From NCBI GenBank assembly GCA_937872225.1, contig CALMRZ010000087.1:1-56535 (forward strand): a DNA stretch of 56,535 bases, in the 5' to 3' direction. The notes beneath the pieces are model-generated. The model had not been told where the DNA came from, searched no databases, and worked only from the letters and a program-made list of their open reading frames with translations. Positions 11,595 to 17,683 of this stretch are shown one piece after another. Origin of the DNA: an uncultured Spirochaetota bacterium (GTDB taxonomy: Bacteria > Spirochaetota > UBA4802 > UBA5550). A program made the translations under genes and the position numbers. The number at the start of each line of letters is the position of its first letter. Within the stretch, counting starts at the first letter, position 1.

Positions 11595-12542
11595 TTAATC
11601 CATGAACACTTCTATTTTATTGTTTCCCATCCTGATGGCCCGCTTCACGGCCAGTTCCGATTTTTTAATGAGGGCGTCAAGGACAAGGTCATTCAGAAGG
11701 TTGCTGTCCACGGAGTTGTTTTTTGCTATCTGCTTCGGATCCAGTTCGGCAACGCCTATCGACAGCGAGATCTGCATCCTCGAATCGTTTATCACCAGGG
11801 GCTTTTTGGCAAAGGCAGCAATGATCCGCTTCGCCACTTTTTCCGCGTTGTGCTTGCCTGATCCGGGAAGAAAAATAAGGAAATCGGACACCGTGTACCG
11901 CCCGATCTTGTCATAGGGCCTGCAAGAAACCTTCATCCGTCTGCCGCACTCGACGAGAACCTCGTCCATGACGGCAATGCCGTGCAGCTCAATCAGTTCC
12001 TTGAAATTCGTTATGCTCGTCACCATTGCGGAAATGTATTTCATCTCCCGGGACGCCCTTCCCATTTCCTTGAGCACCTCGTCCAGGAGGGACCGGCGGT
12101 TGAAAAGGCCGGTAACCGGGTCTTCCTTAACCAGGGTCAGCATTTTCTTCTTGTTCCGCTGCATTTCTTCTTCCAGCTTGATGATCCGCTCGGCGATCTT
12201 CATCCTCGACAGGATCTCTTCCTTGCCGAAAGGCTTGAAAATGAAATCATTGGCCCCGGCCTGGAGAAATTTTTCGATGGCGCCTTCCCGCTCCCTGGTC
12301 GTGACCACCAGGAGATAATAGAACCTGTTTGACTTGATTTTGCGTATCCGCCGGCAGAGCGACTCGATGTCGAAATCGCCCGATGCCCAGTTGATAATGG
12401 CCACCTGTATATTGTTTTTCTGGATATCCGCCAGGACGTTATCTATCCCTTCGGAAACAACTAGTTTCGGTTTATACCCCTTCAGGGAACTGGACACCGC
12501 TGACTTGAAGGACTGGTTGCTGTTAACCAATAACACGTTCAT
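11595..12542 (-). CDS. degenerate receiver domain fused to degenerate GGDEF domain
   Basis: A 315-residue cytoplasmic protein with the layout of a response-regulator diguanylate cyclase. Residues 1-120 fold like a receiver, but the acidic pair of strand 1 is replaced (LLVNSNQSF) and the phospho-acceptor position in AIINWASG is Asn 51; the conserved Lys of FIFKPFG remains. A short coiled coil (about 120-140) leads into a GGDEF-like domain starting DPVTGLFNRRSL. Its active-site loop reads RYTVSDFLIF instead of RYGGDEFLIL, so cyclase activity is unlikely, though the C-terminal SIGVAEL is kept. It may act as a binding or scaffold protein. It stands alone between two convergent or divergent units and has its own promoter at 12676-12648. 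Confidence 0.82.
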   Translation of the reverse strand: MNVLLVNSNQSFKSAVSSSLKGYKPKLVVSEGIDNVLADIQKNNIQVAIINWASGDFDIESLCRRIRKIKSNRFYYLLVVTTREREGAIEKFLQAGANDFIFKPFGKEEILSRMKIAERIIKLEEEMQRNKKKMLTLVKEDPVTGLFNRRSLLDEVLKEMGRASREMKYISAMVTSITNFKELIELHGIAVMDEVLVECGRRMKVSCRPYDKIGRYTVSDFLIFLPGSGKHNAEKVAKRIIAAFAKKPLVINDSRMQISLSIGVAELDPKQIAKNNSVDSNLLNDLVLDALIKKSELAVKRAIRMGNNKIEVFMD

Positions 12543-12739: not shown

Positions 12740-15199
12740 TTATTCTATGTCCACGCGGTAGGGGAACAGGTACAGGGCCCGTTCATCCTTCAATTTCAAA
12801 TACTCCGCATTCTGCAGCAGGCCCCGAACCTGCTCGGACAGCATTTTAAATTCAGGCAGCTTGAAAAGTTCAAAGAGGGGGCCCCGCTCATCGGGGAACT
12901 TTGCGACTTCAAAGCGGTCGTCTATCCGCGCCAGGTACCGGGCGTATTCCACCGCCGCGACGATGCCGCCGTTCTCATCCGCGAGCCGCTTGTCAAGAGC
13001 CTGGGACCCGGTAAATACGCGCCCCTCGGCGACCCGGGCGATGTCGGCGGCGCTCATCCGGCGCGCCTCCATGACCTTCCCGGTAAACCGGTCGTAGGAG
13101 AAGTCGATCCCCTTTTGCAGAAGTGCCGTCTCCTTTCCGGTGAGACGGCGCGATTCGGAAAAGATATCAGCGAACTCGCTCATCTTGATGACGTCTTTAT
13201 GTATGCCGAGCTTCCGGTAGAGCTCCTCCAGGGTGATCTTGCCGAAGACAACGCCGATCGATCCGGTCGTCGTGCCGGGGTTTGAGAAAATCCTGCTGCC
13301 GGTGCACGCCACGTAGTATCCCCCCGAGGCCGCGATATTTCCGAAGGAAAACACCACCGGTTTCCGGTATTTTTTCTTCAGCCTCACCAGGGCGTCCCAC
13401 ATGACGTCCGATGCCGCGGCCGATCCCCCGCCGGAATTGACGCGGATCACCACCGCCTTCGCGGCCGGGTCCCTGAAGGCCGTCTCCAGGGCCTTCCGGT
13501 ACGCCTCGTCACCGATGGACCTGAACCATCCCGTATCAAAAGAGTCGCCGCTCACGATGGATCCCTCGATGACGACGACGGCGATCTTCGGCACCATGCC
13601 CCACCGGTGATCGACGTTCTCTTCCTTAAGGTAGGATGAGAGGCTCACCACTGAAATGCCCCGTCCTATCGACTCAACAGCATCATCGGGATAGCCGATG
13701 GAATCGACAAAACGGTTTTTCACCGCTTCGGCCGGCTCCAGCGAGCCGCGGGCAAAGATATCGTCAATGGTTTCCCGGGAGATGCCGCGGTCAGCCATGA
13801 TGTCGTCGACGTACTGCCTGTTCAGGTCCGAAAGAAGCGAGGTAATATTTTCACGGACCGCCTCGGACATCTGCTCGCGCGTGAAGGCCTCGTTGAATGA
13901 TTTATAGGTTCCGCGCTTGACCGATTCGAAACGCACTCCCACTTTGTCCATCAGCCCCTTGAAGAAATAGACCTGGGCCTTGAGTCCCGTGATGTAAAAG
14001 GGGCTGTTGGGTGTGAAGAAGATGCGGTCAGCCGCAGAGGCGAGATAGTATTCCTTGTTTCCCGGAGCCGACATGACCGCGTAAACCTTCTTGCCGCGGG
14101 AACGCGCCTTTTTCAGTCCCTGGCGGAGCTCCTGCACCTGGGCTAAACCGGGACCGGCGCCGTTGATCTGGACGATGATGCCGTCGAGGGCCGGATCTCC
14201 GGCGGCGCGGTCGATGGCCGCGGCGACGTCATAGAACACCGTGGCTTCCGTTCCCCAGAAGCTCCGCTTCTCGATCTCGCTGACGGACCCGTCCACGACT
14301 ATCTTCAGGTACCTTCCCCGTCCCGGCAGCGCCAGTGCCGACCTGTTCGCCGCCAGGGAGAAGGAACAGCCGAAGCTGTTCCGGTCCGGCGCCCCGCCGC
14401 CGTACATGCCGCGATAGTAATGCGCCTCGATGCCGGCCGAGGGATAGGAGTGAAACCATAGAGGCATCGAAAGGCCGAAGAGAAAACTCCTGTGTATGTC
14501 GCCGGTCACGAAAAGCGAGATGTCATACCAAAGTCGCAGATCCGCCGTGAACCGGTAATTCAGTCCAGAGGGCCTGTCGCCTTTTTCATAGACAACATCC
14601 ATGGAAAGGGTGAGGCGGTCCCACCAGGGCCTGAGGGAAACCGAATAGATCTGCCGCCATTTGGTCCTGTTCCCGTTGACAATTCCCCACGCGTCGTCCA
14701 TGACGAACCCGAATGACACATAGCGCCACGGCCTGAGGAGCAGGCCGAAGTCAATGCCCCGGTATCCCTTGAAGCTTCTCACCGACGATTTGCTGAAGGA
14801 ATAACTCAGACCGAAGCCGAAGATATTTTTTATCATCACCCCCTTGGTGAAGGAAAAATAGGAGGCGCCGGCATGATCGATAGCGTCTATGTTCTTCAGA
14901 TATATGTCCTGGAAGCGGCCGTAGAGAAAGGTGAAACCCCAGTATCCCGCCTGGACAAAATGGTCGCCGCTCTTTCTCCCGTCATAGAATGAATACTGGT
15001 AGGCGACAAGGGGCGTGCTCTGGAGATCGGCAAAAACAGGGTTTATCGTCTGACCGAAGGGCCCGGAAGTGTAACTTGCGGAGCCCCGCTCATGGATGGT
15101 GAAGGGATTGTCCGCGGCGTGGAGGGTACTGGATGAGGGAAACAGCATCGCAGTTGCTGATGAAACGACCAGCAACAGGTAATAATATCTTTTCATCAT
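12740..15199 (-). CDS. sppA: SppA-type signal peptide peptidase with N-terminal beta-barrel-like domain
   Basis: An 819-residue protein. Residues 1-29 are a signal peptide ending LHAAD. Residues about 30-290 are rich in alternating aromatic/hydrophobic and polar residues, many Tyr/Phe/Trp, with short turns, the texture of an outer-membrane beta-barrel. Residues about 297-819 form a complete tandem SppA (S49). The general-base Lys lies in GTYKSFNEAF (K433) in the first half and the nucleophile Ser in NIAASGGYY (S625) in the second, preceded by VNSGGGSAAAS. E. coli SppA lacks the barrel-like part and is about 620 residues. Two adjacent ATGs (15199, 15196) overlap the tmk stop, so expression is coupled to tmk. 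Location could be the outer membrane or periplasm; a lipobox is absent. Peptidase assignment is firm; the N-terminal domain is inferred from texture only. Confidence 0.87.
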   Translation of the reverse strand: MMKRYYYLLLVVSSATAMLFPSSSTLHAADNPFTIHERGSASYTSGPFGQTINPVFADLQSTPLVAYQYSFYDGRKSGDHFVQAGYWGFTFLYGRFQDIYLKNIDAIDHAGASYFSFTKGVMIKNIFGFGLSYSFSKSSVRSFKGYRGIDFGLLLRPWRYVSFGFVMDDAWGIVNGNRTKWRQIYSVSLRPWWDRLTLSMDVVYEKGDRPSGLNYRFTADLRLWYDISLFVTGDIHRSFLFGLSMPLWFHSYPSAGIEAHYYRGMYGGGAPDRNSFGCSFSLAANRSALALPGRGRYLKIVVDGSVSEIEKRSFWGTEATVFYDVAAAIDRAAGDPALDGIIVQINGAGPGLAQVQELRQGLKKARSRGKKVYAVMSAPGNKEYYLASAADRIFFTPNSPFYITGLKAQVYFFKGLMDKVGVRFESVKRGTYKSFNEAFTREQMSEAVRENITSLLSDLNRQYVDDIMADRGISRETIDDIFARGSLEPAEAVKNRFVDSIGYPDDAVESIGRGISVVSLSSYLKEENVDHRWGMVPKIAVVVIEGSIVSGDSFDTGWFRSIGDEAYRKALETAFRDPAAKAVVIRVNSGGGSAAASDVMWDALVRLKKKYRKPVVFSFGNIAASGGYYVACTGSRIFSNPGTTTGSIGVVFGKITLEELYRKLGIHKDVIKMSEFADIFSESRRLTGKETALLQKGIDFSYDRFTGKVMEARRMSAADIARVAEGRVFTGSQALDKRLADENGGIVAAVEYARYLARIDDRFEVAKFPDERGPLFELFKLPEFKMLSEQVRGLLQNAEYLKLKDERALYLFPYRVDIE

Positions 15200-15810
15200 G
15201 CCGTTACCCGCGTTACGAGATCGTTGAAATCATTCCGTATCACTTCGAATATCTCATCTATGCTTCCCGTCCCGTCGAGGACAAGAAACCGCCCGTCAGC
15301 GATGGAAAGAAAATTCTCCCGTACCTTCTGCAACAATGATTCCTTTTCAAAGACTTCCTGTTCTCCGCCGCTGCGGACCGTGACCCGTTCCATCGCCCGG
15401 TCAGGCGGCAGATCGACAAAATAAACACGGTCCGGTTCCGGGAAGTTCATCTTCCTGTTCTCGGCGATAATCTGTTCCGGCGCCATGCCCGCCGCACCCT
15501 GATAGGCAGCGTTGGAAAAATAGTACCGGTCCATGATGATGATCCTGTTTTCCCTGAGGGCTGGGATAATGTTTTTTTCCGCGTCCTCCTGCCGGTCGAG
15601 GAGAAATAGCCTCATCTGCTCCTCCGCCGGCGCCATCTCTTTTTCCCTGAGCATGGCCCGTATCTTCCTGCCCCACCGGCCGTCCGTCGGCTCCGCAAGC
15701 TTTACCGCCGGGAGTCCCAGCGACACGGCGTGCCCGAACAGGAGGTCGCACTGCGTCGACTTGCCCGACCCGTCGATCCCCTCGAACACCACGAAGAGCG
15801 GCCGTTTCAT
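15196..15810 (-). CDS. tmk: thymidylate kinase
   Basis: dTMP kinase of 204 residues, making dTDP for DNA synthesis. P-loop FEGIDGSGKSTQ at 9-20, the DRY motif in IIMDRYYFSNAAYQG (about 93-107), and the LID region after the mid-protein FVDLPPDRAMER. Length is normal. It begins one base inside the stop of the upstream EI24 gene (TAATG) and ends overlapping the sppA start, the middle of a densely packed minus-strand operon with sua5. Confidence 0.96.
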   Translation of the reverse strand: MKRPLFVVFEGIDGSGKSTQCDLLFGHAVSLGLPAVKLAEPTDGRWGRKIRAMLREKEMAPAEEQMRLFLLDRQEDAEKNIIPALRENRIIIMDRYYFSNAAYQGAAGMAPEQIIAENRKMNFPEPDRVYFVDLPPDRAMERVTVRSGGEQEVFEKESLLQKVRENFLSIADGRFLVLDGTGSIDEIFEVIRNDFNDLVTRVTA

Positions 15811-16619
15811 TATGGCGTACCCCCGCGGTCGCCCCGCAGGGCCGGCATCACGCGCTCGGAGAAGAGCATGGCGGCGGCCACGGTGGCGATATTCAGGCCG
15901 AGGAACCCCACGACGGGGATGAAGGTCATCAGGAACATCGAGGAGCCGAGCCCGGTGACGGTCCTCTTGAAGCGCCAGGCCACCGCCATCTTTTCACGGA
16001 AGTTGTAGCGTCGCCGCTCCAGGGGAAAGTCGAAAAACTGGAACCCGATAAAGAAAGACGTGGCGAGGAAACCTGTGACCGAATAAAGGACACTCCCCGC
16101 GGCCGGTATCAGGTGCAGGAAAAGGAGAAGAAGCTGAATCAGCACGATGAGACACAGGAGCTTGACCACGTTGCCTATTACGCGGAAGATGTCCCTGACG
16201 ACAGCGGGAATGGAAAGCTTTTCATCGAACCTGGCACCCGTCATGGTCTCCTCCACCCTCTGCGAAAGAAAATCGTTGAAGGGGGCGGTAATGACGCTCC
16301 CCAGGACGGAATAGAGAAGCACGATGAGGATTGCCAGCAGGAGTACCAGCAGCGGTGCCAGGACGAATTCGAACAGCCGGTTGTACCACGCGGAGCCTTC
16401 GACCAGGCTGAAGAGCGGATCATAGACAGCGGTATAGATGAAGAAGACCACAGACGAAAGAATGACTATGTTCAGCAGAAAGGGAACCGCGAAATATTTT
16501 ATCATTCCCCTGTTAGAGCGGATGAAACGGACCGACCGCGGTGCGGCGGTCAGGCCGCGCAAGAAGGAATCGTCAGTCCGCACGCCGTCTTTGAAGAGTT
16601 GCGTTGCCGTAGGTCCCAT
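15810..16619 (-). CDS. EI24/CysZ-like multi-pass membrane protein
   Basis: Inner membrane protein of 269 residues of the EI24 (etoposide-induced 2.4 / CysZ) family. It has about four to five hydrophobic segments: near 45-65, 80-105 (very Leu/Ile rich), 150-175 and 225-250, with an amphipathic stretch FNDFLSQRVEE typical of the family between the second and third, and FPLERRRYNFREK before the last segment. CysZ itself carries sulfate; no sulfate assimilation genes are nearby, so the role is open. An in-frame TTG at 16631 would lengthen it by four residues, but the ATG at 16619 has GGAGG upstream (13 bases). The sua5 stop lies at 16628-16630, so the two genes are nearly contiguous. Confidence 0.78.
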   Translation of the reverse strand: MGPTATQLFKDGVRTDDSFLRGLTAAPRSVRFIRSNRGMIKYFAVPFLLNIVILSSVVFFIYTAVYDPLFSLVEGSAWYNRLFEFVLAPLLVLLLAILIVLLYSVLGSVITAPFNDFLSQRVEETMTGARFDEKLSIPAVVRDIFRVIGNVVKLLCLIVLIQLLLLFLHLIPAAGSVLYSVTGFLATSFFIGFQFFDFPLERRRYNFREKMAVAWRFKRTVTGLGSSMFLMTFIPVVGFLGLNIATVAAAMLFSERVMPALRGDRGGTP

Positions 16620-16627
16620 GTCACCGA

Positions 16628-17683
16628 TCAATCCTCCGGCATCGCGGTCTCTTTCCAGGCGGCCCTGCGGAGCCGGTCCATGATGGCCAGTCCGAGGCCC
16701 TGCTCCGGCACCGCCTCTGCCATGATGACCCGCACGTTCATCTTGTCCAGGCGGTGGAGGGACGAGAAGAGGTTGGCCGCCGCTTCCTTCAGGTCCCCGT
16801 CAGAGGAAAGAATTTCAGTGCGGTTTTCCGGTATGGTAAAGTCGGGCTTCCTGAAAAGGAGGAACCCCGCGTCTTTCCGCGAAAAATCAATCTCGCGGAT
16901 GCTCCCGGCAAGATACACCGGTATTGACGGCGAATAGTGAGACGGCAGCTGTCCGGGCGCTTCGGGGCCCTTCGCCGTTTCCACCCCCCTCTCCACCGGG
17001 CCGATCACGGCCTCGATCTCCTCGACGGGAACGCCCCCGGGACGCAGGATGACGCTTTTCTCGCCCGTGAGCTTTATAATCGTGGACTCCACGCCCACGG
17101 CGCAGTCGCCCCCGTCGATGATCATGTCAACGCGGTCCCCCAGCTGGTCCAGGACATGGGCGGCCTTGGTGGGGCTTATGTACCCGAAGCGGTTGGCGCT
17201 GGGCGCCGCTATGGGGGTCCCGGAGCCCATGATAAGGTCCCGGGCTATGAGGTGGTCCGGCATGCGCACCGCCACCGTGTCTAGTCCGGCGGTGACGATG
17301 TCCGGCACCAGGTCGTTTTTCGGCAGAACCATGGTGAGGGGACCGGGCCAGAACCTGCCGGCGAGCCTCCCCGCCCGGCGGTCGATGGAAATGGCAAGCC
17401 GCGCCATCTGGGAAAGGTCGGCGATGTGGACGATGAGCGGGTCGAAGAGGGGCCGTCCCTTGGCCTCGAAGATGCGCGCCACCGCCAGGGGATTGAAAGC
17501 GTCCGCGCCGAGGCCGTACACGGTCTCGGTGGGAAAGGCCACGATGCCCCCGGATTTTATGACAGACGCGGCCTTCCGCATCACACCCCGGGAGGGATGG
17601 GATATCCGCATCGGCCCCGCCGCGGGGCCCGCGAACCGGGAGCTCAGGCGCTTCGCCAAGTCATTCAGGGACATCAGCCTCAT
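16628..17683 (-). CDS. sua5: L-threonylcarbamoyladenylate synthase (Sua5 type)
   Basis: Enzyme that makes threonylcarbamoyl-AMP from Thr, bicarbonate and ATP, the first step of t6A37 tRNA modification. 351 residues: the YrdC domain (about 35-235) has VAFPTETVYGLGADAF, KGRPLFDPLIVH and PSANRFGYISPT; the Sua5-specific C-terminal domain follows the linker LPSHYSPSIPVYL, where SHY is the conserved hinge. The first 24-34 residues exceed what the family needs, so the true start may be the Met codon at 17674 or 17611. It heads the sua5-EI24-tmk-sppA unit. Upstream (17684-17977) I see no gene, only a TTGACA at 17830-17835 without a convincing -10. Confidence 0.93.
   Translation of the reverse strand: MRLMSLNDLAKRLSSRFAGPAAGPMRISHPSRGVMRKAASVIKSGGIVAFPTETVYGLGADAFNPLAVARIFEAKGRPLFDPLIVHIADLSQMARLAISIDRRAGRLAGRFWPGPLTMVLPKNDLVPDIVTAGLDTVAVRMPDHLIARDLIMGSGTPIAAPSANRFGYISPTKAAHVLDQLGDRVDMIIDGGDCAVGVESTIIKLTGEKSVILRPGGVPVEEIEAVIGPVERGVETAKGPEAPGQLPSHYSPSIPVYLAGSIREIDFSRKDAGFLLFRKPDFTIPENRTEILSSDGDLKEAAANLFSSLHRLDKMNVRVIMAEAVPEQGLGLAIMDRLRRAAWKETAMPED

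Follow-up and report, generated by a model that had tools for sequence, protein, structure and literature searches.

SppA is regarded as an inner-membrane enzyme, and to our knowledge the upkeep of the spirochaete outer membrane is poorly known. Escherichia coli SppA is anchored in the inner membrane by an N-terminal transmembrane (TM) helix, has a periplasmic active site that lies far from the membrane, and cleaves signal peptides that have already been released into the periplasm; in other lineages, SppA alone digests internally made peptides (PMC9360617). When sppA is lost from Flavobacterium columnare, whose SppA is of the TM form, vesicle release increases and membrane homeostasis is disturbed (PMC13236525). 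PorV and BamG belong to the FadL family of barrels and serve as scaffolds for machines of the outer membrane (PMC12611786). Here we describe a spirochaete protein in which a predicted barrel of this type is continuous with a complete SppA. Both parts are known, and no description of their combination was found in the literature searched, which lay mostly outside subscription journals.

The gene was found in the window, i.e., the whole 56,535-nucleotide stretch of DNA that was analysed. It is one intact gene, whose product consists of a signal peptide, a beta domain of ~250 residues, and a complete tandem SppA, with the following features.

12740 to 15199, minus strand: fused sppA open reading frame (ORF), 819 aa
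15113 to 15199, minus strand: predicted signal peptide, residues 1–29
15008 to 15112, minus strand: N-terminal hatch, residues 30–64, with N53-P54-V55, aligned to the N-terminal segment of FadL/PorV
14354 to 15007, minus strand: predicted 14-strand outer-membrane beta-barrel, residues 65–282, based on AlphaFold2, structure alignment and strand alternation
14315 to 14353, minus strand: short linker, residues 283–295, joining the final barrel strand to the first strand of SppA (E296–304)
12740 to 14314, minus strand: tandem SppA (S49) peptidase, residues 296–819 (the C-terminal 524 residues)
13901 to 13903, minus strand: catalytic lysine K433 (context YKS)
13325 to 13327, minus strand: catalytic serine S625 (context AASGGYY)

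The peptidase part is complete. TIGR00705 (SppA_67K) matched residues 321–795 with 334.2 bits, above the curated cut-off of 311.45, PF01343 matched the ORF twice, and the E. coli SppA structures 3bez and 3bf0 matched it with an E value of 4e-54. K433 and S625, which the initial annotation had named as the catalytic residues of an intact tandem SppA, are at these positions and form the Ser-Lys dyad expected of SppA (S49, 67K type); both residues are kept in 47/47 fused relatives. The catalytic part was assessed by sequence and by Foldseek matches to E. coli SppA, given that the SppA half was poorly modeled (pLDDT often <50) in the full-length AlphaFold2 run with 8 sequences.

The preceding ~260 residues had been annotated as alternating aromatic and polar sequence, and the statistics agree with this description: residues 30–300 are 19% aromatic, as compared with 11% in the remainder of the protein, and only 4 of 5000 shuffles reached the alternation of hydrophobicity seen along the strands when an aromatic-weighted scale was used, and 46 of 5000 on the plain Kyte-Doolittle scale. 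AlphaFold2 with 7 aligned sequences placed 14 strands within residues 65–282 and a short helix at residues 54–57 (pTM 0.71; pLDDT mostly 70–90), and the full-length run reproduced the same strands. A Foldseek search of the PDB with the barrel model returned PorV as the top match, followed by OmpG, KdgM, a second PorV entry, and FadL. For the same candidates, VIA-align gave Z scores of 23.1 for TodX, 23.0 for CymD, 22.9 for TbuX, at most 22.5 for the FadL entries, 22.0 and 21.7 for PorV, and 18–19 for the FadL-family subunits of the Bacteroidota BAM complex (9n2d, 9hjm, and 9hiv), while the score dropped to 17 for OmpG and CymA, well below FadL and PorV. The top FadL/PorV alignments span 230–246 residues (model residues 25–285) and include the hatch. 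N53-P54-V55 is the counterpart of the NPA hatch motif of FadL and PorV. The motif is NPV here and NPA in many relatives, N53 and P54 are invariant in A2, and NPA, NPV, or NPS is present in 44 of the 47 fused proteins. The list of FadL structures includes a 'delta NPA' mutant entry.

No Pfam family matched residues 1–314, and Pfam and NCBIfam scans with the N-terminal domain alone gave nothing above cut-off. A homology search with this region, suggested in the initial annotation, nevertheless recovered the homologous region in other genomes. The PorV_fam profile reached an E value of 0.02 at best, in 3 of 12 relatives, and a direct comparison of profiles did not support a link between the window's barrel group and the PorV of the genome itself; the barrel profile of a related clade matched a PorV-family protein (one over the NF033709 cut-off) with an E value of 2e-7. 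Because the protein contains eight matches to the beta-signal motif, the one at the final strand (SFGCSFSL, residue 275) was discarded as evidence. The N-terminal domain is predicted to be an outer-membrane barrel of the FadL/PorV type, as opposed to a non-barrel globular fold. Because of the SppA match, the dyad, the aromatic and alternation statistics, and the homology of the N-terminal region across genomes, the ORF is neither a chance frame nor a misassembly.

The signal peptide annotated ahead of the beta region corresponds to a weakly hydrophobic segment, with a KD19 maximum of 1.51 at residue 8 and a helix at residues 2–17 in the models. A hydrophobicity scan of the whole protein detected no TM helix apart from this segment, and an inner-membrane location, which would have spoken against the original idea, gained no support from it. 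The KD19 peak of the TM helix in the short SppA paralogue is 2.73.

G000:C91:52244-52963: short SppA paralogue of the same genome (319 aa); its N-terminal TM helix is strong

The N-terminal inner-membrane TM helix is a trait of the typical SppA form, not of the catalytic family; it is absent from the fused protein, in which the weak signal-peptide-like segment is followed by the predicted barrel.

The gene is flanked by the following conserved neighbours.

15196 to 15810, minus strand: tmk (thymidylate kinase; PF02223), in the same position in relatives
15810 to 16631, minus strand: EI24/CysZ-like membrane protein (PF07264)
16628 to 17683, minus strand: tsaC/Sua5 (PF01300, PF03481)
11595 to 12542, minus strand: downstream response regulator-GGDEF protein (PF00072, PF00990)

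The start of the fused sppA overlaps the tmk stop by 4 bases (ATGA). The run tsaC-EI24-tmk-sppA (15196–17683 of the window plus sppA) has overlapping ends and is conserved in the family. The neighbours, housekeeping genes whose order is conserved, give no hint of a pathway.

The fusion is not peculiar to this genome and is widespread in the phylum; the chromosomal comparison genomes were all Spirochaetes, and a scan of genome contigs gave Spirochaetes matches only. A match covered both the barrel and SppA in 36 of the 46 genomes of the order (a few are cut by contig ends), and 34 of these 36 also carry a short SppA of ~320 aa. Within the window's genus, three of the six genomes lack the fusion, and it is also missing from two further genomes of the family and from the whole of family f4 (four genomes); given its absence from half of the genus, it is dispensable. 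Outside the order, fused frames of ~815–865 aa are found in families f22, f38, f41, and f46, with hatches that read like DDITSLYFNPAGLG and a barrel profile that matched that of the window's group with 99.8% probability and an E value of 3e-28. Related barrels with an NPAG hatch are fused to SppA in other spirochaete families, and frames of similar length with beta-rich N-termini, assessed by eye only, occur in families f17, f18, f29, f42, and f44. The fused form is the only SppA found in some genomes outside the order (for example, G110, G120, G075, and G133). None of the plasmid SppA genes from other phyla covered 80% of the query, and the one longer match, from Fusobacterium, was an ordinary 578-aa TM SppA.

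The phylum also contains other SppA forms. SppAs of 560–610 aa with a TM helix occur in families f8, f21, f24, and others, two genomes (G177 and G013) have an SppA with a signal peptide only, and another has a lipobox.

L112:971-2761 (G138): lipobox-bearing SppA (LFVSC), apparently a lipoprotein

Because barrel, TM-helix, signal-peptide-only, and lipobox forms all occur, there are at least three modes of SppA attachment to the envelope within the phylum. In a tree of 63 rows, the 24 proteins of the window's order grouped in one clade with support, as did the 11 f22-type proteins. As to the origin of the fusion, and not its function, we regard a single barrel fusion in an early spirochaete, followed by several losses or replacements, as an even bet against repeated fusion. 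Holding the two main barrel clades together as one group was not rejected (p-AU 0.375), and their barrel profiles are far more similar to each other than to PorV, both consistent with a single event; however, one clade of all 41 barrel-labelled SppAs was rejected (p-AU 9e-6), a result to be read with the long branches of several outlying rows and the by-eye assignment of their barrels.

Two further FadL/PorV-type barrel fusions were observed in the same genome. An 880-aa protein (L133:2628-5270, G000:C17) joins a PorV-like barrel with an NPA hatch, through FlgD-type Ig repeats, to an OmpA domain at its C-terminus. In the other (L129:1063-2391, G000:C27), the module order is reversed, an N-terminal Ig/FlgD-like part preceding an NPAG-type PorV-like barrel. 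OmpA domains are periplasmic peptidoglycan-binding modules.

A barrel with an even strand count leaves its C-terminus in the periplasm, as is established for the FadL family; with 14 predicted strands, the C-terminus would therefore leave the fused barrel on the periplasmic side. The protein that joins a PorV-like barrel to OmpA argues for the same orientation of SppA, because its OmpA domain is periplasmic. The initial annotation had described SppA as usually an inner-membrane or cytosol-facing enzyme. The inner-membrane part of this description stands, while the cytosol-facing part does not, since the active site of the E. coli enzyme faces the periplasm (PMC9360617). For this reason, the barrel would change the membrane to which SppA is attached and not the compartment in which it works. 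An inner-membrane anchor is not required for signal-peptide chemistry, because E. coli SppA acts on released peptides, and tethering to the outer membrane is compatible with it. The predicted 14-strand fold and the lack of a TM helix support the earlier suggestion that the barrel would place the peptidase at the outer membrane or in the periplasm.

As the best explanation of these observations, we consider it probable that the fused protein is a periplasmic SppA tethered to the outer membrane, and that it breaks down signal peptides after their release as well as stray polypeptides of the envelope. Once the protein had been exported by Sec and had lost its signal peptide, residues 30–282 would fold as a 14-strand barrel of the FadL/PorV family, with the hatch in the lumen, and insert into the outer membrane. 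The ~13-residue linker would keep the catalytic tandem SppA just beneath this membrane on the periplasmic side, so that the barrel would substitute for the N-terminal TM helix by which ordinary SppA is anchored. Near the outer membrane, the Ser-Lys enzyme, which is presumably tetrameric as in E. coli, would degrade signal peptides freed into the periplasm together with envelope polypeptides that are stray or unfolded, and the short TM-anchored SppA would serve the inner membrane. Some genomes outside the order have the fused SppA alone, so the work is not everywhere divided strictly between the two membranes.

Three other readings of the domain architecture were weighed against this one. The beta domain might be soluble and periplasmic, with an uncleaved signal sequence anchoring the protein in the inner membrane like ordinary SppA. 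The signal sequence does precede the domain at the position of the ordinary TM helix, and its cleavage is presumed; however, its hydrophobicity is weak (1.51 vs 2.73 in the short SppA), the predicted fold is a membrane barrel with FadL and PorV as clear top matches, and the strands alternate in hydrophobicity, all of which makes this arrangement highly improbable. If the barrel were instead a working FadL-like channel, it could import hydrophobic peptides or lipopeptides, which the attached SppA would hydrolyse as they reach the periplasm. Such a role would suit the closest folds, which are channels for hydrophobic compounds (TodX, CymD, TbuX, and FadL), and the position of the peptidase directly behind the barrel. 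We nevertheless think it quite unlikely: at ~250 residues, against 421 in FadL, the barrel would have short loops, the neighbours are housekeeping genes with no transport or uptake genes among them, and SppA alone elsewhere digests internally made peptides (PMC9360617).

The barrel could also serve, by analogy with PorV and BamG, as a docking scaffold that places SppA by an outer-membrane assembly machine, where it might exert quality control over nascent outer-membrane proteins or lipoproteins and destroy failed outer-membrane proteins, lipoproteins, or export leftovers. PorV and the BAM FadL-family subunits (9n2d, 9hjm, and 9hiv) are among the best structural matches (Z 18–22), and BamG is a FadL-family barrel that is essential for BAM function (PMC12611786), but no linkage to bam genes was seen in the loci examined and the fusion is absent from some members of the genus. 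We hold this proposal to be unlikely. Of the two live alternatives, uptake-digestion and docking, we find the latter of greater interest, since outer-membrane machines are scaffolded by two other barrels of the FadL family, PorV and BamG (PMC12611786).

If the reading of the protein as an outer-membrane-tethered periplasmic SppA is true, the anchor of SppA would be exchangeable between the two membranes with the catalytic part unchanged, and proteolysis would join the cargo of FadL/PorV barrels in spirochaetes. The fusion would also provide a ready-made natural system for testing at which site cells destroy signal peptides and stray envelope proteins.

Compared with E. coli SppA (protease IV; MEROPS S49; 3bez, 3bf0), the fused protein has the same tandem S49 fold, with 28–30% identity over the structure alignment, and the same distribution of catalytic residues, the lysine lying in the N-terminal half and the serine in the C-terminal one; unlike it, E. 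coli SppA is held in the inner membrane by an N-terminal TM helix (PMC9360617) and has no barrel. The predicted 14 strands, the NPA-type N-terminal hatch, and Z scores of up to 23 are shared with the FadL family (FadL, TodX, CymD, and TbuX), whose members are ~420 residues long, whereas the fused barrel is ~250 residues long, lacks a Pfam match, and carries a protease at its C-terminus. The 880-aa PorV-barrel-OmpA protein of the same genome likewise carries, after its N-terminal hatch and PorV-like barrel, a periplasmic module at the C-terminus, but that module is a peptidoglycan-binding OmpA domain and no protease. PorV of type IX secretion (Z 22) and BamG of the Bacteroidota BAM complex resemble the fused protein in their FadL-family barrel, but they act as scaffolds that bind separate partner proteins, whereas here SppA is covalently fused to the barrel.
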